Under the pieces are notes generated by a model. That model searched no databases and was not told the DNA's origin. It saw only the letters and a program-made list of their open reading frames with translations. A program made the position numbers and the translations under genes. A DNA stretch of 34,469 nt from Clostridia bacterium (GTDB lineage Bacteria; Bacillota; Clostridia; Christensenellales; CAG-138), in the NCBI GenBank assembly GCA_017440405.1, contig JAFSHG010000061.1, positions 1 to 34,469 of the forward strand, given 5' to 3'. Positions 1,415-12,904 of this stretch are shown in pieces; within the stretch, counting starts at the first letter, position 1, and every line of letters begins with the position of its first letter.

Positions 1415-4339
1415 TCAGAATTGGTCTATGAGTCCCGAAGCATACTTTAATATGTACACTGCATCGCCCGTATTCAAAATTCCGTCACCTGTGACATCAC
1501 CAATGCTTGTTTGACTTTCATCGGGTGTGACCATGCCTGCTGCATACCTTAAAATGTACACTGCATCGGCTGTATTTACGGTATCGTCCAAGTTGATATC
1601 ACCCAGCACGCCGTCCTTGTAAATGGCATACACAATCATGTTTTCCTGTACATTCGTGATATCCTCGCTCCAACATACAAAGTGCATTCCCTCATGCACG
1701 GGTTTTTCGGGCGGGGTACATGCACCGGGAGAATCCATCTCGATGCGTGCGATTTCAATGCCGTTTTGTGAATCACGGAAAGTTACGGTGATTTTATCGG
1801 ATTCGCCGTTTTCATAGAGTGCGGACACTGTAAAATCGTCGGTTATCCCGTACAGGCAGCCGTCCCAACCCATGAATGTTTTTCCGTCTTTTTTGCTGAC
1901 GGATGCACGAACTGCATTTTCGCCCTTTTCCAAGATTTGGGTTGCAATTATCTTGCCTTCGTCCTCAAAACTTACTGTTACAAACTCGTCGCTTTCAAAG
2001 TCGATTGCTCGTGATACATCAAAGCGTGTACCCGATGTAAAGAGGTAGAAGCCCTTATTATTTTTGAATTTGATGTATACGTTTTCGGTTTCCATGGTGG
2101 GGTTTGTAACGTACAATCTTCCCTTTTCCATTGCAAATATGCTCTGTGCGTCTTCCGTGAGACTCAAAACACCGTCTTTATCGCTCATGGAGAGATAGCG
2201 GTTTGAGCCTGCGTTGTAGAGGTAGAAACCGCCCTCGGCTTCACGGAACTGCCACATACATGCAGCGGAGATATTGCCCGAATAGTAGCCCAAAAGCTTG
2301 CTCATTGCTCTGGACTGTATGTAATCGGGGTTGGAATTGCTGACCGTTGCACCTATTGCCTCGCAATTGCTGTCGTAGGTAATGAGCATGAATTCGTGTT
2401 CGTAGTCGTATTCACAGTCTGCTTTATACACTGTGTTGGTGGAAACTTTTACATCCAGATTGACGTACACATCGGGGTTTGCCTTTGCATACACGGTGAC
2501 AACGGCATTTCCGGGACGATGTGATGTGAGTATTCCTTTTGCATCAACACTTACTGTGCCGGGGTTATTCGAGATAAATCCCACACTCTTATCGCCGCAG
2601 TCAAGAGGCATTATCTCGGCACTGATTTCACGGGTCTGACCCACCTTGAACTGTGAGCTTGCGCCGCTGCATTCGGCGGTTATGCTCTCGGGCAGTATTT
2701 CTGAAACCGTGACGGTACAGGAATCTTGGAAAACACCGTCGCCGTAAGTTATTGTGAAGGAAACGGTGGCTGTGCCTGCTTTTTTACACAAAACCATTCG
2801 TGGTCCTACTACTTCCGCAACTTCGGGGTCTGAGCTTTCCCACTCCTGTGTATAGCCGTACACCATGGTATATGGTGAGAGTGAAACGGGTATGTAGCAG
2901 TTTGAACCCACTATGCCGTCCAATTTGTCCGATACCATTTCAGCGTCCGTTACGGGAACATCGGGCTTATATACCACAAAGTCCGTTGCACCGTACATTA
3001 CAAGATGTGCTTTTGCGCCCTCAGAGCCCCAAGGGTCTTCGTCGCCGTTTTCTTCAATGGCGAGTGCGCCTGCTTCTTCCAAATTATATGTACGGGTTTC
3101 ATCCTCTGCACATATGGTAGTGAGGTGCGGATACATTACAAGAAGGTTATAACCCTCATAACCCATGGATACGCTGTTGTCATATCCGTATGCACACACT
3201 GCACCCATTTCAAAGAACGGAGTGCGCATGGTGTCATACGTCATGCCGTAACAGATGCCGAAATACAGGAATGTGTTTTCCATTTTTCTGTTCATCTGCT
3301 CATAATAATACTGGAAATAATCTCCCGATATATACACATGTGTGGGGTCGTTCGTCTTCATAACACGACCTGCCGTAACATCGGCTGCCGTGTATCCGCC
3401 GCCTTCCCAAACATTCATGTAGGAATTGCCGTAACCCGTGAGGCCGTGGCTGTCTACCATGACAAAACCGTTCTGCCAAAAAGTCTCCAAAAGATTGAAG
3501 GGGATGGTTTCTTCATTGTCCAGCACCGTAATATAGCCGCCCGTGTATTTTGTAATCATTTTTGCAGCATCTATGTAGCGGTCATTGTGGAAGCCTTCCT
3601 CACCCGCAACATTTCTGAACGGACGAACGAGCAATACATTGGGGTTAGTCCAAGATTGGAGTGTTTCATTGCCCTTTATATCATCCGTGACGGTATAGCC
3701 GTCTGCTGTGAATATCATGGGTGAGTTTTCAGCTTCACCCGTGCCTTTCACATCGTCGCCGAGCCTTGCATACAGTGAAGAAATGCCTGCCGTGGTGGTG
3801 TATGCACAACTGCCGTTTTCTATCTCCATACGCTCTATGTCGTCACAACTTCTCAGATAATCCGTTACAGCATCAAATATGAAAGCATCATCTGCACCAC
3901 GCTCCTCCAGTGTGGATTCAATCTCGTTTATTCTGTCATATATGCTCTGTGCGATTTTATTATCCTGTTCCGTGAAATCACGGTAATAGTTCACGGTGTA
4001 CTCACGCACGGGTTTGCCGTCAGCGTATGCCGTGTATGTAACCAGACGGCGTGTGTCCGATGAGAGTTTGAGCTTTGCCGTGTACACACCGTCACCCTTT
4101 GTTCCCGTGTCATACATGCGTGCAGCCGTCTTTCCCGTGTTGTCACGCAATTCCACACGCTCTGCGTTTGTGCCCTCTAAGTCCAGCACAAAGAGTGCAT
4201 TTTCGCTTTCGCCCAGCTCTATATCAATGGCCGTTTTTACCACAGCGGATGCAGGTTCGTCAAATGTTGCATTTGATACGCCGAAGCCTGCTGTGAATAT
4301 GAACAGCATTGCAAGCAGTACGGATGTAATTTTTTTCAT
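1415..4339 (-). CDS. Secreted dockerin protein with a clan CD-like (clostripain/caspase-fold) cysteine peptidase region and Ig-like repeats
   Basis: The product has 974 residues. Residues 1-24 form a signal peptide. The central region (~205-460) carries VMVDSHG with His298 and YFGICYG with Cys363. This order and spacing of HG and C-G motifs is that of clan CD cysteine peptidases such as clostripain, gingipain and caspases. Two bacterial Ig-like (BIG2) segments follow (~465-545 and ~550-632), then a beta-rich region with repeated aromatic and Gly residues, and two InlB/Flg_new-type repeats (~765-905). The last ~65 residues form a type I dockerin with two Ca-binding duplicates (GDINLDDTVNTADAVYILR and GDVTGDGILNTGDAVYILK). 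The protein is therefore probably exported and attached to a cohesin scaffold. A good SD (GGAGG, minus strand) precedes ATG 4339. Peptidase activity is inferred from two motifs only. Confidence 0.75.
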   Translation of the reverse strand: MKKITSVLLAMLFIFTAGFGVSNATFDEPASAVVKTAIDIELGESENALFVLDLEGTNAERVELRDNTGKTAARMYDTGTKGDGVYTAKLKLSSDTRRLVTYTAYADGKPVREYTVNYYRDFTEQDNKIAQSIYDRINEIESTLEERGADDAFIFDAVTDYLRSCDDIERMEIENGSCAYTTTAGISSLYARLGDDVKGTGEAENSPMIFTADGYTVTDDIKGNETLQSWTNPNVLLVRPFRNVAGEEGFHNDRYIDAAKMITKYTGGYITVLDNEETIPFNLLETFWQNGFVMVDSHGLTGYGNSYMNVWEGGGYTAADVTAGRVMKTNDPTHVYISGDYFQYYYEQMNRKMENTFLYFGICYGMTYDTMRTPFFEMGAVCAYGYDNSVSMGYEGYNLLVMYPHLTTICAEDETRTYNLEEAGALAIEENGDEDPWGSEGAKAHLVMYGATDFVVYKPDVPVTDAEMVSDKLDGIVGSNCYIPVSLSPYTMVYGYTQEWESSDPEVAEVVGPRMVLCKKAGTATVSFTITYGDGVFQDSCTVTVSEILPESITAECSGASSQFKVGQTREISAEIMPLDCGDKSVGFISNNPGTVSVDAKGILTSHRPGNAVVTVYAKANPDVYVNLDVKVSTNTVYKADCEYDYEHEFMLITYDSNCEAIGATVSNSNPDYIQSRAMSKLLGYYSGNISAACMWQFREAEGGFYLYNAGSNRYLSMSDKDGVLSLTEDAQSIFAMEKGRLYVTNPTMETENVYIKFKNNKGFYLFTSGTRFDVSRAIDFESDEFVTVSFEDEGKIIATQILEKGENAVRASVSKKDGKTFMGWDGCLYGITDDFTVSALYENGESDKITVTFRDSQNGIEIARIEMDSPGACTPPEKPVHEGMHFVCWSEDITNVQENMIVYAIYKDGVLGDINLDDTVNTADAVYILRYAAGMVTPDESQTSIGDVTGDGILNTGDAVYILKYASGLIDQF

Positions 4340-4673: not shown

Positions 4674-4994
4674 GTGAAGCATACAGTACAAATGGAGACT
4701 GAACAGGGGCGAAAAGCTCTTGTGATAAGTCTGTGCGGAGAACTGGACCATCACAGTGCAGGCAAATTGCGTGAGGAGATAGATGCCGAACTTGAAAAAC
4801 ACGGTTTCGGTTTTTGCATATTGGATATGAGCGGAGTCAGCTTCATGGACAGCTCGGGGTTGGGCGTAATACTGGGCAGATACAGGCTGGTTACGGAACA
4901 CGGGGGGACGCTTGCTGTAAGAAATCCCAATAAGACCGTGGACAGGATATTGAAAATGTCGGGCATATACTCCATTGTGGAAGTAAAAAAGTAA
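4674..4994 (+). CDS. spoIIAA: Anti-sigma F factor antagonist SpoIIAA
   Basis: This is a 106-residue STAS-domain protein that, when unphosphorylated, binds SpoIIAB and releases sigma-F in the forespore. It shows the family hallmarks GELDHHSA (~22-29) and FMDSSGLGVILGRY (~57-70). Ser60, the first Ser after the Asp, corresponds to phosphorylated Ser58 of the Bacillus subtilis protein. I chose GTG 4674 because the SD GGAGG (4661-4665) lies 8 bases upstream; ATG 4668 would be only 2 bases from it. The resulting length matches the family (~110-117). It is the first gene of a tight operon with spoIIAB (12-base gap) and sigF. It is switched off when SpoIIAB phosphorylates it and reactivated by the phosphatase SpoIIE, which is not in this window. 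Confidence 0.97.
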   Translation: MKHTVQMETEQGRKALVISLCGELDHHSAGKLREEIDAELEKHGFGFCILDMSGVSFMDSSGLGVILGRYRLVTEHGGTLAVRNPNKTVDRILKMSGIYSIVEVKK

Positions 4995-5006
4995 AGGAGC
5001 TTTACC

Positions 5007-5441
5007 ATGAAAACAAACGAAATACACATAAACTTTCCCGCCCTTTCCGAAAATGAAGCACTGGCACGAATGTGTGCGTCATCTTTTGCGGCACAACTGA
5101 ATCCTACCATTGAAGAACTGTCAGATATACGCACTGCTGTAAGTGAGGCGGTAACAAATGCAATAATACATGCATATAACAGCTTTCCTTTGCCTGTATA
5201 TATGGATATGTACATTGAGGATGAAGTTTTGAAGATAGTGATACGTGATACGGGCAAAGGTATAGAGAACGTGGACGAGGCAATGCAACCCTTTTATACC
5301 ACTGTCCCCGGTGAGGAACGCTCGGGAATGGGCTTTTCCGTAATGCAGGCTTTCATGGATACTTTGGAGGTAAATTCCGTGGGCGGCATAGGTACCACCG
5401 TTGTGATGACGAAAAAGATTGAAAGGGTGCTGCCTGAGTGA
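5007..5441 (+). CDS. spoIIAB: Anti-sigma F factor SpoIIAB (serine kinase)
   Basis: This is a 144-residue GHKL ATPase/kinase that holds sigma-F inactive in the predivisional and mother cells and phosphorylates SpoIIAA. The N box is EAVTNAIIHAY (~48-58), the G1 box is DTGKGI (~82-87), and the G2 glycine-rich lid is ERSGMGFSVMQAF (~104-116). Family length is ~146. An AAAGGAG SD precedes ATG 5007. The stop codon overlaps the GTG start of sigF (GTGA), a classic translational coupling that helps keep anti-sigma and sigma factor stoichiometric. Confidence 0.97.
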   Translation: MKTNEIHINFPALSENEALARMCASSFAAQLNPTIEELSDIRTAVSEAVTNAIIHAYNSFPLPVYMDMYIEDEVLKIVIRDTGKGIENVDEAMQPFYTTVPGEERSGMGFSVMQAFMDTLEVNSVGGIGTTVVMTKKIERVLPE

Positions 5442-6196
5442 GCGGTGCGCATGTATTGGAGCATGAGGAAACATTGGACCTCATTGCAAAATCAAATGCA
5501 GGTGATGAGGAAGCAACGGAAAAACTTGTTCGTCACAACATTGCGCTTGTAAAATCCATTGCGTCCAAATACAGGGAGAGGGGAATGGACTATGACGACC
5601 TTTTTCAAACGGGTTGTTTGGGACTTATAAAAGCCGTGAGAAACTACAATGCGGACTTCGGCGTGCGCTTTTCCACATATGCAGTACCCATGATTGCAGG
5701 CGAAATAAAAAGGACATTGCGTGATGACAACATGATACACATAAGCCGTAGCATGAAGGAATTGGGCACGCGTGCCATGGCGGTGCAGGAAAAGTTGCAA
5801 AACTCACTCGGGCGTGATGTTAGACTGGACGAGATTGCAGCCGAACTCGGGTGTGACGTTTTGGACGTGGCACAGTCGCTGGAAGCCATGCGGCCGCACA
5901 TTTCCATTTATGAACCCGTGTACGATGACTCGGACGGAACATCCGTGGCAGACAGAATACCCGCAAACGAGGATACTCAGGAGCAGATAATAAACGATTT
6001 ATTCTTAAAAGAGATGCTTTCATCGCTTTCCCTGCGTGACAGAAGCGTGATAGACATGCGCTATTTCAGAGGACTCACTCAGAGTCAGACGGCGAGGCTT
6101 CTCGGTATATCTCAGGTACAGGTGTCACGGTTGGAAACACGGATAATTAAGGAATTGCGGGAAAGATACGTCAAACAGTCCGGCATTGCAGAATAA
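5438..6196 (+). CDS. sigF: RNA polymerase sporulation-specific sigma-F factor
   Basis: The 252-residue product is the first forespore-specific sigma factor. Region 2 is visible as LVRHNIALVKSIASKYRERG, DYDDLFQTGCLGLIKAV and RFSTYAVPMIAGEIKR (-10 recognition). Region 3 follows (~105-150), and region 4 carries SLRDRSVIDMRYFRGLTQSQTARLLGISQVQVSRLE, whose helix-turn-helix reads the -35 box. GTG 5438 overlaps the spoIIAB stop by four bases, and no other upstream start is available in frame. The gene is followed after 68 bases by a DUF421 gene rather than by spoVA genes. Assignment as sigF rather than sigG rests on its length and on the preceding spoIIAA-spoIIAB pair. Confidence 0.96.
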   Translation: MSGAHVLEHEETLDLIAKSNAGDEEATEKLVRHNIALVKSIASKYRERGMDYDDLFQTGCLGLIKAVRNYNADFGVRFSTYAVPMIAGEIKRTLRDDNMIHISRSMKELGTRAMAVQEKLQNSLGRDVRLDEIAAELGCDVLDVAQSLEAMRPHISIYEPVYDDSDGTSVADRIPANEDTQEQIINDLFLKEMLSSLSLRDRSVIDMRYFRGLTQSQTARLLGISQVQVSRLETRIIKELRERYVKQSGIAE

Positions 6197-6201
6197 AACA
6201 G

Positions 6202-6264
6202 GCTCTTTTTGCAGATACTGATAAGGCAAATGCGAATTTGCAAAGTGCAAGGAGAGCTTTTTTT
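6202..6264 (+). promoter_or_regulatory. Terminator-like hairpin that contains the SD of the DUF421 gene
   Basis: GCTCTTTTTGC (6202-6212) pairs with GCAAGGAGAGC (6247-6257) over 11 bp, including two G-U pairs. An inner 6-bp hairpin (GCAAAT 6226-6231, ATTTGC 6236-6241) is capped by a GCGA tetraloop. Seven Ts (6258-6264) follow and run directly into ATG 6265. The 3' arm contains the AAGGAG SD. The element can act as an intrinsic terminator, as an SD mask, or both, between sigF and the germination genes. Confidence 0.65.
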
Positions 6265-6978
6265 ATGCGTTGTGATTTTATTGAAGTTACTATATGGTCT
6301 GTGGTTTCGCTGGCAGTCCTTTTTTTGATGTCAAAACTCATGGGGAACAAGCAGATTTCCCAGCTCAACGGTTTTGACTACATAGTTGGAATTTCCATAG
6401 GCTCAATCGCGGCAGAACTTGCGTCCGTGCAGGATGTGGACAAGCCACTTAATAATGTGCTTGCAATACTTATATACGGTGTTGTGGCATATGCAATATC
6501 CGTTATCACGGCAAAGAGTATAGCTGTGAGAAAAATCATAACGGGTCGCCCCATTGTTATTATGGATAATGGCGAGATATTCAGAAAAAATCTTGCAAAA
6601 GCCCGAATTGATATGAACGAATTTCTCACGCTTTGCAGAGAGAAGGGCTATTTTGACATAAGCACCATACAGACGGCATTCATAGAACATGACGGCAAAC
6701 TGAGTATATTGCCGAAGTCTGAAAACCGTCCCGTCACACCTTCTGATATGCAACTTTCGACCGAAAACGAAACGGTACAGACCGTGGTAATATCGGACGG
6801 ACACATACTGCGTGAAAATCTGCACATCACGGGACATGACAGTGTATGGCTACTGGGCGAACTGAAAAAGCAAAACCTGGAAGTTCAAAATGTATTCATT
6901 GCGTTTTGCAGCGATAGCGGAAAGGTGTCCGCATACAGGATGAATAAGGGGAATTGTGAGGTGGATAAATTTGAATAA
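6265..6978 (+). CDS. DUF421 (YetF-like) membrane protein
   Basis: The 237-residue protein has an N-terminal membrane region (three hydrophobic segments within residues ~5-85, including the conserved MGNKQISQLNGFDYIVGISIGSIAA loop). The cytoplasmic YetF C-terminal domain follows, with VIMDNGEIFRKNLAKARIDMNEFLTLCREKGYFDI (~107-141). I chose ATG 6265 because the AAGGAG SD is 8 bases upstream; an earlier in-frame TTG at 6238 has none. The biochemical function of DUF421 is not established. The related 2Duf protein of the Bacillus spoVA2mob element also carries a DUF421 region and affects spore heat resistance and membrane properties, so a role in the spore inner membrane is plausible. It overlaps the start of gerAA. 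Confidence 0.88.
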   Translation: MRCDFIEVTIWSVVSLAVLFLMSKLMGNKQISQLNGFDYIVGISIGSIAAELASVQDVDKPLNNVLAILIYGVVAYAISVITAKSIAVRKIITGRPIVIMDNGEIFRKNLAKARIDMNEFLTLCREKGYFDISTIQTAFIEHDGKLSILPKSENRPVTPSDMQLSTENETVQTVVISDGHILRENLHITGHDSVWLLGELKKQNLEVQNVFIAFCSDSGKVSAYRMNKGNCEVDKFE

Positions 6979-8557
6979 GTTTTTCCGCAAAATAGCGTTC
7001 TATTTCAGGTTCGATAATTCCGCAACGAATAATTTTGAGCTGCTTGAAACAGAATTCGGTGAGCCGAGCAAAAGTGCAGATGAAGATTCAGGCAAACAGT
7101 ATAACCCCAAAGACGACACGGCAGATACCCTTTTTTATGAAGCGGATAAAAACATTGACCGCATAAAAACGGCGTTTCGCACCGACATATCAAAAGACTT
7201 GGTGGTGCGTGACTTCATGCTGTGCGGTCGCATACATGCCACACTCGCTTTCATAAACGGAATGGCGGATAATGAAATAGTGAATAACTATATTCTGCGT
7301 GACGGCATGAACGGTGAAATTCCCGAGGGTACGGAGGATTTATGCAAATATGCGGTTGAACACATATTTACCGTGAACGATATGAGCATAGCTTGTGACT
7401 ATGACACCGTGCGCAAGGCTCTGCCCGACGGAAAGACAATAATCTTCATTGACGGCGACCCGCACTGCTGTATAGCCGACACACGCAAGTTTCCGCAACG
7501 AAGTGTTGAAGCGGCAGAAAATGAAAAGGGGGTACTTGGTCCCCGTGAGGCTTTCATCGAGAATATACGTACCAATATTTCACTCATAAGACGGCATGTT
7601 CATACGGATGATTTGGTGTGCGAAATGCGCCCCATGGGTGAGGAAACGTCCACCGCCGTGGGAATTTTATACAGGGACAAGGTGGCAAGTGAATCGCTCG
7701 TAAATGAAGTCAAGCGCAAGCTTGCAACCATAAAGACAGGCTCCGTACTGAGTACGGGTATCATAAATCAAATGGCAGAACCCAAACCGTTTTCGCCCAT
7801 CCCTCAAACACTCCTCACGGAAAAGCCCGACAGATGTGCTTCATATCTTTTGGACGGGCATGTGGTGATACTCTGTGACGGCAGCCCACTTGCGGCAATT
7901 TTGCCCGTGACATTATTTTCGCTCATGTCCACGCCCGAGGATTCTTACTCCCGACAGGTTACGGGAACGGTGTTGAGAATAATAAGATACATCGGTGCAC
8001 TTATATCCATTATACTTCCGGGCATTTTCATAGCCATTGTGATGTATCATCACGGTTTTTTATCTTCTGAAATGTTATCAACACTTATCACTTCCCGCAA
8101 AATGGTATTCATACCCATAGGTATAGAATTGCTCCTGCTGCTTTTCGTATTTCAATTGGTGCGTGAGGCAGGCATGAGAGTACCCGGAACCGTGGGGCAG
8201 GCGATAGGCATAATAGGCGGTCTGGTACTGGGACAGGCAGTGGTGAGTGCAAACCTTGCAAGCTCTGTGGTGCTCATTTTGGTAGCACTCACGGGACTCG
8301 GAACTTTCTGTATCCCCGATTACAGCACACAGATTTCGTCCGTGTACCTGCGTATCATTTTTATGATTGCAGGGTGGATGGGCGGTTTTTTGGGGCTGGG
8401 TTGTGCATGGCTCATATTTACCGCATATATCTGCACGCTCAAATCGTTCGGAGTACCGTTCCTCACACCGTATGCGCCAAAGTCAAAGAGTAAACGTATG
8501 AACGTACTGCGTGGACCCATAAACAACAAAACACACAAGGAGGATTACATGCAATGA
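6971..8557 (+). CDS. gerAA: GerA family spore germination receptor A subunit
   Basis: The product is ~528 residues. It has a soluble N-terminal domain (1-~310) containing TLFYEADKNIDRIKTAF, DLVVRDFMLCGR and the GPREAFIENIRTNISLIRRH signature. The membrane domain has five or six helices, and VREAGMRVPGTVGQAIGIIGGLVLGQAVVSA is diagnostic of GerAA/SpoVAF proteins. In the spore inner membrane A subunits oligomerise into a germinant-gated channel. TTG 6971 is preferred because GAGGTGG (6958-6964) is correctly spaced; GTG 6956 is upstream in frame. The start overlaps the DUF421 stop, indicating coupling. Because gerAB and gerAC follow, this is a receptor subunit rather than SpoVAF. The germinant cannot be predicted. 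Confidence 0.93.
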   Translation: MNKFFRKIAFYFRFDNSATNNFELLETEFGEPSKSADEDSGKQYNPKDDTADTLFYEADKNIDRIKTAFRTDISKDLVVRDFMLCGRIHATLAFINGMADNEIVNNYILRDGMNGEIPEGTEDLCKYAVEHIFTVNDMSIACDYDTVRKALPDGKTIIFIDGDPHCCIADTRKFPQRSVEAAENEKGVLGPREAFIENIRTNISLIRRHVHTDDLVCEMRPMGEETSTAVGILYRDKVASESLVNEVKRKLATIKTGSVLSTGIINQMAEPKPFSPIPQTLLTEKPDRCASYLLDGHVVILCDGSPLAAILPVTLFSLMSTPEDSYSRQVTGTVLRIIRYIGALISIILPGIFIAIVMYHHGFLSSEMLSTLITSRKMVFIPIGIELLLLLFVFQLVREAGMRVPGTVGQAIGIIGGLVLGQAVVSANLASSVVLILVALTGLGTFCIPDYSTQISSVYLRIIFMIAGWMGGFLGLGCAWLIFTAYICTLKSFGVPFLTPYAPKSKSKRMNVLRGPINNKTHKEDYMQ

Positions 8558-8592
8558 GTATGAGAAAAAGAAAGGAGTGTCGGAATGTATGA
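8554..8592 (+). CDS. Candidate 12-codon coupling mini-ORF between gerAA and gerAB
   Basis: ATG 8554 overlaps the gerAA stop as ATGA, and the mini-ORF's own TGA (8590-8592) overlaps the gerAB ATG (8589) as ATGA. A strong AAGGAGG SD (8537-8543) precedes it by 10 bases. The encoded peptide is very basic (MSMRKRKECRNV). It may carry ribosomes from gerAA to gerAB rather than yield a functional peptide. This is inferred from sequence layout only. Confidence 0.3.
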   Translation: MSMRKRKECRNV

Positions 8593-9716
8593 ATTTGCGT
8601 GAGGGCAGGGTGGGAAACGGCGAATGTGTGTTCACCCTGGTGATATCGCTCTGCATGAGCGGACTTTTTGTATTTGAATCCATAGACGCATATACGCACG
8701 GAAACTCCACTTACATATCGTTGCCCATAGCGTGTATACTGGCATTTTCAGTATTTGCCGTGGGGATTTTTGCCATGACTCGAAGCAGGAGCAGTGACCT
8801 TTGCGCCATGTGTTCGTATGCGCTCGGAAAGACGGGGGCTGCCGTGGTATGCGTTTTTATCATCGTCATCATACTTGCGTGCATAAGCACACTCTTAAAT
8901 AAATTTTTAAATGTTATGTACAGCTACTTTTTTCAGGATGCATCATATTATTCCCTGGCGGCATTTTTCCTTGCAGTGCTGGTTGTGTTTTCCTGCATGG
9001 GCTTTGAGACCGTAAACAGGGCTGCAAAGGTGCTCGGGGTAGTGTTTCTTGCAACTCACATACTTTTGCTTGTAAATTCGTTCAGCAGCTATGAAACATA
9101 TAAGATTTATCCCATAGCAGGTGACGGTATGAAGTCCATGCTTCGTTTTGCCTTTGAATCCGGGATACTTTTTTTACCGGGGTTTGTGTCAGCACTCATA
9201 ACGGCAAAGGGAATGCACGGAACGCACAATACATCGAGGATAGCAGTGAAGGCACTCATTTTTACCGTCATAATCTGTACGGTGACACAGCTTTTGCTGG
9301 CATTATCATATCCTTACGACGATATTGCAAAGCTCTATATGCCGCTATACAGAATGAGCATGGTCACGGGTGAGGAAAACTTTTTAGTCCGACTGGATAA
9401 GATAAGTGCGTTCATATGGGTGGCTGCCGCACTTTTAGCTTGCAGTTATTACATATACAGTGCATCGCTTCTGTACTGCCGCTCTTTCCGTCAAGTGGAT
9501 ATACGACCTGCATCGTGCAGCTTGAGCGTCATTGTGATAATGTTGTGTCTGTTGTCGCATTCGGAGAAGAGAGGCGCATTTTCGTGGCTGAACTTTGTGG
9601 GCGACTACGGGACGCTTCTTTTGGCAGTCCCCATAATTGCAGTGTCTGTGATAGCAATTATAAAAAGCTGCATACAGAGATCTTCACTCGGGGAGGTGGG
9701 CCATGCAAATATTTAA
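8589..9716 (+). CDS. gerAB: GerAB/GerKB-type spore germination permease
   Basis: This is a 375-residue polytopic membrane protein (about ten hydrophobic segments) of the APC-superfamily endospore germination permeases. B subunits bind the germinant. The family layout is present: an N-terminal GNGECVFTLVISL segment, ~10 helices, and a LDKISAFIWVAAALLACSYYIYSA segment in the position of the typical R-D-F-IW motif. I chose ATG 8589 because AAAGGAG (8571-8577) lies ~11 bases upstream; GTG 8577 would overlap that SD. The 3' end overlaps gerAC by 14 bases. Sequence divergence from well-studied GerAB proteins is considerable, so the germinant type is unknown. Confidence 0.85.
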   Translation: MNLREGRVGNGECVFTLVISLCMSGLFVFESIDAYTHGNSTYISLPIACILAFSVFAVGIFAMTRSRSSDLCAMCSYALGKTGAAVVCVFIIVIILACISTLLNKFLNVMYSYFFQDASYYSLAAFFLAVLVVFSCMGFETVNRAAKVLGVVFLATHILLLVNSFSSYETYKIYPIAGDGMKSMLRFAFESGILFLPGFVSALITAKGMHGTHNTSRIAVKALIFTVIICTVTQLLLALSYPYDDIAKLYMPLYRMSMVTGEENFLVRLDKISAFIWVAAALLACSYYIYSASLLYCRSFRQVDIRPASCSLSVIVIMLCLLSHSEKRGAFSWLNFVGDYGTLLLAVPIIAVSVIAIIKSCIQRSSLGEVGHANI

Positions 9717-10917
9717 GCGAATAAAAAAGCCCGTATGTTTCTTGCTTATTTTAGTCAACACCCTTTCTTTGTGTTCGTGCCTCGGTGCCGTGAGCCTTGA
9801 AAAATACGGATATGTGCTCACCATAGGTTTGGACACGGGCAAGCGGTATAAGTACAGCATATCATTTCTTATGGAAAATGAAGTTGAGGAGTCCGAACAG
9901 AAGACGGCGTCAAAGATAAACATCATAACGGCAGAGGGCGACAACATATACGATGCCATATACATAGCCGAGTCGGGGTTGCCGTACCGACTGAATTTTT
10001 CACGCACAAACTACATCGTGATTTCATACGAGATAGCGGCAAACGATGAGATAATGGAGCTTTTTTCCACCTCATGGGCGATGCTGAAACTGAGAACGTC
10101 CGCCAACATGATAGTAGCAAATGCAACCGCAAGCGAATTTATAGAGGGATTAAATTACAGTTCTTCTGTTAATGCCACAAAATTAGAGAGCAATCTGATA
10201 GACTTTTACGAAAACGAAGGATTAAGCTCCATGATGAGTATCACGAGCTTTATGTCCGCCATAGAAAGTTCAAGATATGATGCCGTTTTGCCGCTGGGCG
10301 GTACGGATACATCGGTGGATTCGCCTCCCGAGAAAGATTCCGATACCACGGAGGGGTCGGAGAGAAAGGGCGGTATGATATCCTACACTCTGGGAGCTGC
10401 ACTGTTTTCCGATTCCGTATTGTGCGGGGTGTTATCGGGCAGAGAGAACCAGATACTTTTGCTCATTCAGGGAAAGCTCAAAGGTTCTGTGATTCAATTT
10501 ACCAGAGCTGACGGCACCAAATACAGCGTGAGAATAGGAAATGCAGAGTTGCCTCGCATAAAGGTGGATTTATCGGGGGATAAAATAAGGCTGCATTACT
10601 CACTGCTTGTATCTGCGGTGCTTGAACAGGACAATTCTTCAAAAGTGGTGGAAAAAATGCGTAAAGAGGGCAAACTCACAGAAGATATGGACATGCAGAT
10701 ACGTGAGTTTTTGCACTCTGCGTGCAAGACCGTCTTTGAACAGTGCCGTGATGTGGGCTGTGATGCGGCAGGAGTGGGAAAGTCCGTTTGCAAGGAGTTT
10801 AAAACCGTGAAAGAGTGGGAAGAATTCGATTTCAGAAGCAGACTTTCGGATGTGGAATGTGATTTTGATATAAGAATAGAGCTGGCGGATATATATGTAT
10901 CCACCTACCCGGAGTAA
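9703..10917 (+). CDS. gerAC: Ger(x)C family spore germination lipoprotein
   Basis: The 404-residue protein has a type II signal peptide with lipobox LCSC and the modified Cys at position 26. The Ger(x)C fold follows: an N-terminal domain starting LEKYGYVLTIGLDTGKRYKYSISF, and the conserved C-terminal domain with a helix DMDMQIREFLHSACKTVFEQC and ending in VECDFDIRIELADIYVS. A short acidic Ser/Asp/Glu linker (~205-225) separates the domains. C subunits are anchored on the outer face of the spore inner membrane and are needed for receptor function. The SD GGAGGTG ends 6 bases before ATG 9703. The start lies inside gerAB, so the genes are translationally coupled. Confidence 0.9.
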   Translation: MQIFKRIKKPVCFLLILVNTLSLCSCLGAVSLEKYGYVLTIGLDTGKRYKYSISFLMENEVEESEQKTASKINIITAEGDNIYDAIYIAESGLPYRLNFSRTNYIVISYEIAANDEIMELFSTSWAMLKLRTSANMIVANATASEFIEGLNYSSSVNATKLESNLIDFYENEGLSSMMSITSFMSAIESSRYDAVLPLGGTDTSVDSPPEKDSDTTEGSERKGGMISYTLGAALFSDSVLCGVLSGRENQILLLIQGKLKGSVIQFTRADGTKYSVRIGNAELPRIKVDLSGDKIRLHYSLLVSAVLEQDNSSKVVEKMRKEGKLTEDMDMQIREFLHSACKTVFEQCRDVGCDAAGVGKSVCKEFKTVKEWEEFDFRSRLSDVECDFDIRIELADIYVSTYPE

Positions 10918-10920
10918 TGT

Positions 10921-11082
10921 ATGGTTTTGTATTTGATTTTAGCCGCAATTTGCATAACATATGACATACTGTACGCACTGCACAGTATAAAAAAGCATAA
11001 CGGACGTGCAACCGTGGGGGCAATACTGCTTGCGTCATTTACCGCCACGGTGGGAGTCCTGTATTTTATTGCACTTCAATAG
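10921..11082 (+). CDS. Small two-helix membrane protein, candidate germinant receptor D subunit
   Basis: A 53-codon frame begins 3 bases after the gerAC stop, with GGAG at 10911-10914 as SD. The product has two hydrophobic helices (residues ~2-18 and ~32-51) separated by a short basic loop (HSIKKHNGRA). Small two-helix D proteins encoded in or beside ger operons modulate receptor activity in Bacillus species, and this protein fits that description in size, topology and position. There is no diagnostic sequence motif, so the assignment rests on context. It is the last gene of the operon and converges with pnuC, whose stop is only 8 bases away. Confidence 0.6.
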   Translation: MVLYLILAAICITYDILYALHSIKKHNGRATVGAILLASFTATVGVLYFIALQ

Positions 11083-12215: not shown

Positions 12216-12434
12216 TTACTTCATCATGTTTCCGCCTGACTTATCCATGTTCTGCTGAGCGTAAGCTATCATGCGCTTTACCATCTCGCCGCCTACAGAA
12301 CCTGCTTCTCTGGATGTGATATCTCCGTTGTAACCCTGCTTCAAGTTTACATTCATTGAAGATGCAGCTTCCATTTTGAGATTCTGGAGTCTGGATTTGA
12401 GTTCAGAATTGGACTGTGTGTTTGAACTTGACAT
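12216..12434 (-). CDS. Alpha/beta-type small acid-soluble spore protein
   Basis: This 72-residue SASP has the KMEAASSMNVN segment around the expected germination protease (GPR) cleavage site (~20-30) and the DNA-binding signature LTSREAGSVGGEMVKRMI (with ITSREAG here, ~39-55). These proteins coat forespore DNA, protect it from UV and heat, and are degraded by GPR at germination. A GGGAGGTGA SD precedes ATG 12434. It lies 39 bases downstream of a second SASP gene on the same strand and is followed by a strong terminator. Expression is normally sigma-G dependent; I could not place a convincing sigma-G promoter. Confidence 0.95.
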   Translation of the reverse strand: MSSSNTQSNSELKSRLQNLKMEAASSMNVNLKQGYNGDITSREAGSVGGEMVKRMIAYAQQNMDKSGGNMMK

Positions 12435-12473
12435 TTAGTTCACCTCCCATAGTTATTTTTGTTTACTCAACAC

Positions 12474-12671
12474 TTATTTAAGATTATTTTCGGCATAAGC
12501 TATCATACGCTTTACCATCTCACCGCCTACTGAGCCTGCTTCCCTTGATGTAAGGTCGCCGTTATAGCCCTGCTTCAGATTTACATTCAGTGAGTTTGCA
12601 ACTTCCATCTTGAAGTTGTCCATAGCCTGCTTTGATTCAGGTACGAGAACTCTGTTACGTCTGCTTGACAT
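12474..12671 (-). CDS. Alpha/beta-type small acid-soluble spore protein (second copy)
   Basis: The 65-residue product is closely related to the downstream SASP across NVNLKQGYNGD and TSREAGSVGGEMVKRMIAYA. It differs at the N-terminus, which is basic (MSSRRNRVLVPESKQ). The GPR-site segment is KMEVANSLNVN. ATG 12671 is preferred over ATG 12677 because the AGGAGG SD (12686-12681) leaves a proper 9-base gap rather than 3. The tandem arrangement suggests local duplication followed by divergence of the N-terminal arm. Confidence 0.95.
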   Translation of the reverse strand: MSSRRNRVLVPESKQAMDNFKMEVANSLNVNLKQGYNGDLTSREAGSVGGEMVKRMIAYAENNLK

Positions 12672-12904
12672 TTGCATGTTCCTCCTTTCTTGCTTTCTGG
12701 TTTTAATCTGCCCAAGGCAAAAAAGTTTATACGCATTTTCAACAGGTAATATGTAGATAACATTCCAACCGCATAAATACTTTATTTTTCAAATCAATTT
12801 TTTATTTAATTTTTTATTTGAATGTTCCCGTCACACAGCTTATTTATTCAGAATAGTATAAAGTAACACGAATCAGAGTGAAAAATGAGTTATGGGAGGA
12901 TAAA

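Follow-up and report, generated by a model that had tools for sequence, protein, structure and literature searches.

The sporulation sigma factor gene sigF and its two regulators are followed closely, on the same strand, by a DUF421 gene and a complete set of germinant receptor genes, and the locus is most likely a lineage-specific variant of a ger operon that is led by a YetF-type gene and not a fusion of the sigma-F and ger operons. We consider it probable that there are two adjacent transcription units, of which the first, spoIIA-sigF, is closed by a hairpin and the second is a forespore DUF421-ger operon with a promoter of its own. The first-pass annotation had suggested that transcription reading through from sigF drives the ger genes; this is not supported, since the gap between sigF and the DUF421 gene contains both a terminator-like hairpin and a separate promoter-like site and since the linkage is absent in relatives.

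Gene content of the locus

The window analyzed here is an entire contig of 34,469 bases from the draft assembly of an uncultured spore-forming bacterium (1.55 Mb in 131 contigs, 89.6% complete). Open reading frames and profile searches uphold the order of eight genes that had been proposed, spoIIAA-spoIIAB-sigF-DUF421-gerA-gerB-gerC-small two-helix gene, all on the + strand. The close spacing was also as described: the successive distances are +12, -4, +68, an overlap of 8 or 23, +19, -14, and +3, and the maximum, 68 bases, separates sigF from the DUF421 gene.

The first three genes are in the order of a spoIIA operon, an order that is the same in 20 relatives. The anti-anti-sigma factor gene, spoIIAA (4674–4994), encodes a STAS domain (4.7e-22) and matches TIGR02886 at 9e-32, its 109 bits falling short of the 114.75 cut-off, and spoIIAB (5007–5441), which encodes the anti-sigma-F factor, matches TIGR01925 with 184.8 bits, above the cut-off of 135. 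For the sporulation sigma factor gene, sigF (5438–6196), the top NCBIfam models are those for the SigF/SigG family and SigF, with scores under the equivalog cut-offs. Despite the sub-cut-off NCBI equivalog scores, the identities of spoIIAA and sigF are little in doubt because of the gene order and the relatives. A gene on the − strand (1415–4339) adjoins the spoIIA operon divergently and encodes a protein of 974 residues with bacterial Ig-like and dockerin domains.

The DUF421 gene (6265–6978) encodes a YetF-family membrane protein of 237 residues that matches PF04239 at 1.9e-38 (131 bits). As had been proposed, it is part of the ger operon, of which it is the first gene, and its stop overlaps the start of the gene for the germinant receptor A subunit, gerA (6971–8557; PF03323, 1.7e-145, 486 bits). 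The start of gerA was placed at TTG 6971, which has a better ribosome-binding site than GTG 6956, the listed start of this open reading frame. The B subunit, a spore permease, is encoded by gerB (8577–9716; PF03845, 8e-21) and the C subunit by gerC (9703–10917; PF25198, 2.5e-23; PF05504, 3e-16; TIGR02887). All three subunits are over the Pfam cut-offs, in agreement with the earlier description of a complete receptor operon. PF03323 has a single match in the whole assembly, and this is the assembly's sole detected germinant receptor operon; there are two DUF421 genes.

The fourth ger gene (10921–11082) was recognized by its position, its size, and the hydrophobic segments of its product, a two-helix protein of 53 residues in which these segments comprise residues 2–20 and 34–52; the protein has no Pfam match. 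A gene for 50–67 residues lies at most 34 nucleotides from the gerC stop in 17 of the 17 relatives checked, and the proteins encoded by these fourth genes have a Y-x3-Y-x2-[H/Y]-C-like pattern. The size, topology, and position of the 53-residue product suggest that it is D-like, and the conservation of the fourth gene would make D-like subunits the rule in this clostridial family. About 1.1 kb past the ger operon, on the − strand at 12216–12677, are two tandem genes for alpha/beta-type SASP (101.7 and 81.6 bits).

Hairpin and promoter-like site in the 68-base gap

Positions 6200–6264 (+ strand) comprise a terminator-like hairpin with a stem of 14 pairs (6200–6213 with 6246–6259), an inner hairpin (6226–6241), and an overlapping run of seven U residues (6258–6264). 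Folding of 6190–6270 gave an energy of −26.8 kcal/mol with a z value of −4.06, which was matched by none of 200 shuffles. Stems of at least 12 pairs with a U-rich tail occur at three places in the window when both strands are counted and were absent from 20 shuffled + strands of the window; one of the three is the gap hairpin, and another lies just 3′ of a glutamyl-tRNA-synthetase-like gene. The loop of the gap hairpin, at 32 nucleotides with an inner stem, is longer than those of textbook terminators. The ribosome-binding site of the DUF421 gene, AAGGAG (6249–6254), is inside its 3′ arm.

A forespore-type promoter-like site occupies 6190–6220 on the + strand and comprises AGAATA (6190–6195), a spacer of 18 nucleotides, and GATACTG (6214–6220), with a predicted start at about 6225–6228. 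Its −35 box shares bases with the stop codon of sigF, and transcription is predicted to start 3′ of the first arm of the hairpin. A generic scan reported neither the hairpin nor the promoter because it is limited to sigma-70 promoters and short loops. The site was scored with a two-box motif fitted to 73 gerA upstream regions from other genomes of the family, the genome of the window being excluded. The fitted motif, nnG(A)ATA with a spacer of 17–18 and (A)ATACT, belongs to the sigma-F/sigma-G class that has been described in Bacillus and C. difficile (PMC3789822).

With this model the gap site, CAGAATA-N18-GATACTGA, scores 13.7 bits; the gerA regions of the relatives, which are the same regions that trained the model, have a median best score of 14.0, and half of them score lower than the gap site. 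Among control upstream regions (20–23 of each) the medians are 6.8 for spoIIAB, 4.8 for sigF, 6.9 for gerB, and 5.7 for gerC, and 1 of the 87 regions reaches 13.7 bits. The chance expectation for such a score is about 0.4% for a stretch of 75 nucleotides and about 1.7 sites per 34-kb strand, and because of the latter the gap promoter is probable, not certain. A further site, with 12.2 bits, is inside the DUF421 gene (6603). An exact 9-mer from the gap, GCAGATACT, recurs in 5 of the 73 gerA regions of relatives and has a single occurrence in the window. In 40 of 47 gerA sites of relatives, and also in the gap site, the ATACT core is preceded at four bases by a G; this G is outside the model and hence an independent sign of a real motif.

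These two signals bear on whether the eight genes are transcribed together. One continuous spoIIA-sigF-DUF421-ger operon, in which the receptor would be co-expressed with sigF, would be in keeping with the shared strand, the gap of just 68 bases, and the presence of a ribosome-binding site in that gap. We nevertheless regard it as distinctly unlikely, given the U-run hairpin, which also hides this ribosome-binding site, the separate promoter-like site, and a linkage that is unseen in relatives; the junction illustrates that close spacing on the same strand is no proof of a single operon. In the preferred arrangement of two units, unit 1 would be an ordinary spoIIAA-spoIIAB-sigF operon that ends at an intrinsic terminator-like hairpin just past sigF, and unit 2 a forespore operon, DUF421-gerA-gerB-gerC-gerD-like, whose own sigma-F/sigma-G-class promoter overlaps the sigF stop and the hairpin. 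Transcripts that derive from sigF can form the hairpin and therefore would end there or at least have the DUF421 ribosome-binding site hidden. Transcripts from the local promoter begin at about 6225, past the first arm, and for this reason the site is freer in the computed structures (the probability that AAGGAG is unpaired is ~0.3 in RNA starting at 6225–6227 as against ~0.0 in read-through RNA) and presumably also in the cell.

The same calculation would suit a different division of labor within two units, in which the hairpin acts mainly as a translational lock, and DUF421-ger mRNA made by read-through from sigF stays untranslated until the local forespore promoter fires. The stem covers the entire AAGGAG, with the difference in pairing given above, and the promoter start lies past the first arm, but termination would suit the seven U residues immediately at the stem and is compatible with locking, and the junction is common to no relative; we judge this variant to be unlikely. 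Also rather unlikely is an extension of the two-unit arrangement in which the DUF421 protein would be a dedicated extra component of the receptor, produced jointly with GerABC and the D-like product, while the RNA of the gap would be a switch: the hairpin would end sigF transcripts and block translation of the receptor unit, and the embedded forespore promoter would bypass it. Such a switch would prevent the cell in which sigF is first made from synthesizing the receptor.

From its sequence, the gap promoter appears to be a sigma-F/sigma-G-class site that would fit either sigma factor. In C. difficile, a G upstream of the −10 indicates sigma-F and an A downstream indicates sigma-G (PMC3789822). 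The gap site has the upstream G and lacks the downstream A, and a sigma-F call made by this rule was given up after calibration within the same family. Promoters of sigG are expected to be sigma-F targets and those of SASP genes sigma-G targets; in the family the former have GGCAAT-CTA and the latter, by direct alignment on the −10, CAAATTA. The gerA sites match neither class cleanly, and the sigma-F assignment was dropped for that reason. The family-wide gerA promoter, G(A/T/C)ATA-N17/18-(A/C)ATACT, is distinct from the family −10 sequences of both SASP genes and sigG. The first SASP gene of the window has a SASP-type −10, CAGATTA.

A search of the assembly gave no sigma-G gene, the best match to the sigma-G of the sister genus being the sigF of the window (40%); in nearly all relatives that bear sigF there is a second match, which is sigG-like and at about 40%. 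The assembly still has sigF, SASP, spoVA, and ger genes. The absence of sigG may reflect loss of the gene or a missing contig, and it may be due to chance because about 10% of the genome is missing. The first-pass annotation had set a strong sigma-G promoter just upstream of the DUF421 gene without read-through from sigF, together with a lack of conserved linkage, against its own reading. At the sequence level, both objections are partly borne out: a forespore-type promoter-like site of the sigma-F/sigma-G class lies ahead of the DUF421 gene, and the linkage is not conserved.

The junction in relatives

The sigF of the window is 61–63% identical to the sigF of two genomes of the sister genus, in both of which a gene on the opposite strand follows sigF almost directly. 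Conservation of the link from sigF to DUF421 and ger is not seen: the DUF421 gene is next to sigF in none of 20 relatives with sigF, and adjacency of DUF421 and gerA was absent from about 159 genomes that have both. The latter comprise 79 other genomes of the family and 80 of the wider order, none of which has DUF421 and GerA within 5 kb on one contig; this is a count from match tables, in which a few cases might be missed at the ends of contigs. The closest spacing among them, about 12 kb, is in one genus. A scan of named genomes for close relatives of the DUF421 protein gave two loci, with gerA near neither. A loose proximity, with gerA about 6–7 kb downstream of sigF, is seen in five genomes of one genus and in a sixth genome from elsewhere, and in several of these a gene of the size expected for a penicillin-binding protein, checked by profile in one, is ahead of gerA.

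In the tree of DUF421 proteins, that of the window groups with proteins of the sister genus and of the MAG DTU053 that are encoded by single DUF421 genes (support 98/91, 43–48% identity), and the second DUF421 of the genome falls apart from it. Because the DUF421 genes of the sister genus are separate from the ger operon and not beside ger genes, we infer that the two came together in this lineage, and the arrangement would have originated by a rearrangement. Most other genera have DUF421 in a stable pair with a downstream gene that encodes about 134 residues and often overlaps it; the DUF421 gene of the window is without this partner. That the junction is instead an assembly error might be considered for a draft genome of uncultured origin in 131 contigs, but it is very improbable since the best relatives of sigF, DUF421, and GerB/GerC are all in one sister genus and since the sequence across the junction is coherent in its stops and starts and in having a plausible promoter.

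Comparison with known systems

The locus resembles the Bacillus spoIIA locus, which adjoins spoVA, in the order spoIIAA-spoIIAB-sigF and differs from it in that the downstream neighbor is a ger unit. The idea that the block of ger and DUF421 genes replaces spoVA was rejected because genes of the spoVAC/spoVAEb type are present elsewhere in the genome, on another contig (G000:C75).

The DUF421 protein has the organization of the YetF family, with the PF04239 domain after N-terminal membrane segments, and matches the YetF structure PDB 3C6F at 1.9e-21; its N-terminal match to YetF_N, 20.8 bits, is under the Pfam cut-off of 26.5. DUF421 (YetF) proteins of B. subtilis are located in the forespore inner membrane and affect germination that depends on germinant receptors (PMC10126465, PMC12548441), and sigma-G dependence is reported for two DUF421 genes, C. 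difficile CD1789 and B. subtilis ydfS (PMC3789822, PMC10126465). The likeness to the spore inner-membrane proteins YetF and YdfS lies in the DUF421 domain, the match to 3C6F, and probably the forespore-type promoter. Those proteins are not described inside ger operons in PMC3789822 and PMC10126465, whereas here DUF421 leads such an operon. In the spoVA2mob element with 2Duf (PMC10126465), as probably here, a forespore promoter precedes germination genes and a gene for a DUF421 protein, but in 2Duf the DUF421 domain is fused to DUF1657, a domain that a Pfam profile search did not find in the DUF421 protein of the window, and the neighbors of 2Duf are spoVAC-D-Eb; receptor genes stand here in place of channel genes. 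If it is produced in parallel with the receptor, a YetF-type protein of the inner membrane might stabilize the membrane or the receptor itself, and a DUF421 gene ahead of the sole detected receptor operon of a genome is well suited for testing whether YetF proteins and receptors are linked physically or functionally.

The other products of unit 2 would be a GerA-type nutrient-gated receptor and a small two-helix, D-like modulator. The promoters of Bacillus ger operons are forespore promoters that depend on sigma-G, and the putative promoter of the present operon, of the sigma-F/sigma-G class, may be their counterpart. In Bacillus, D subunits, which have two helices and are encoded within receptor operons or next to them, tune the response of the receptor (PMC4661057). 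The A, B, and C subunits together with a small two-helix protein are as in the GerA-type operons of Bacillus that have a D subunit, such as gerK and gerU (PMC4661057); the small protein has 53 residues as compared with 76 in GerUD, and it is likened to D subunits in general by its size, topology, and position. Unlike the Bacillus operons, this one abuts sigF and begins with a DUF421 gene that overlaps gerA, and it is this leading DUF421 gene that is the departure from known ger operons.
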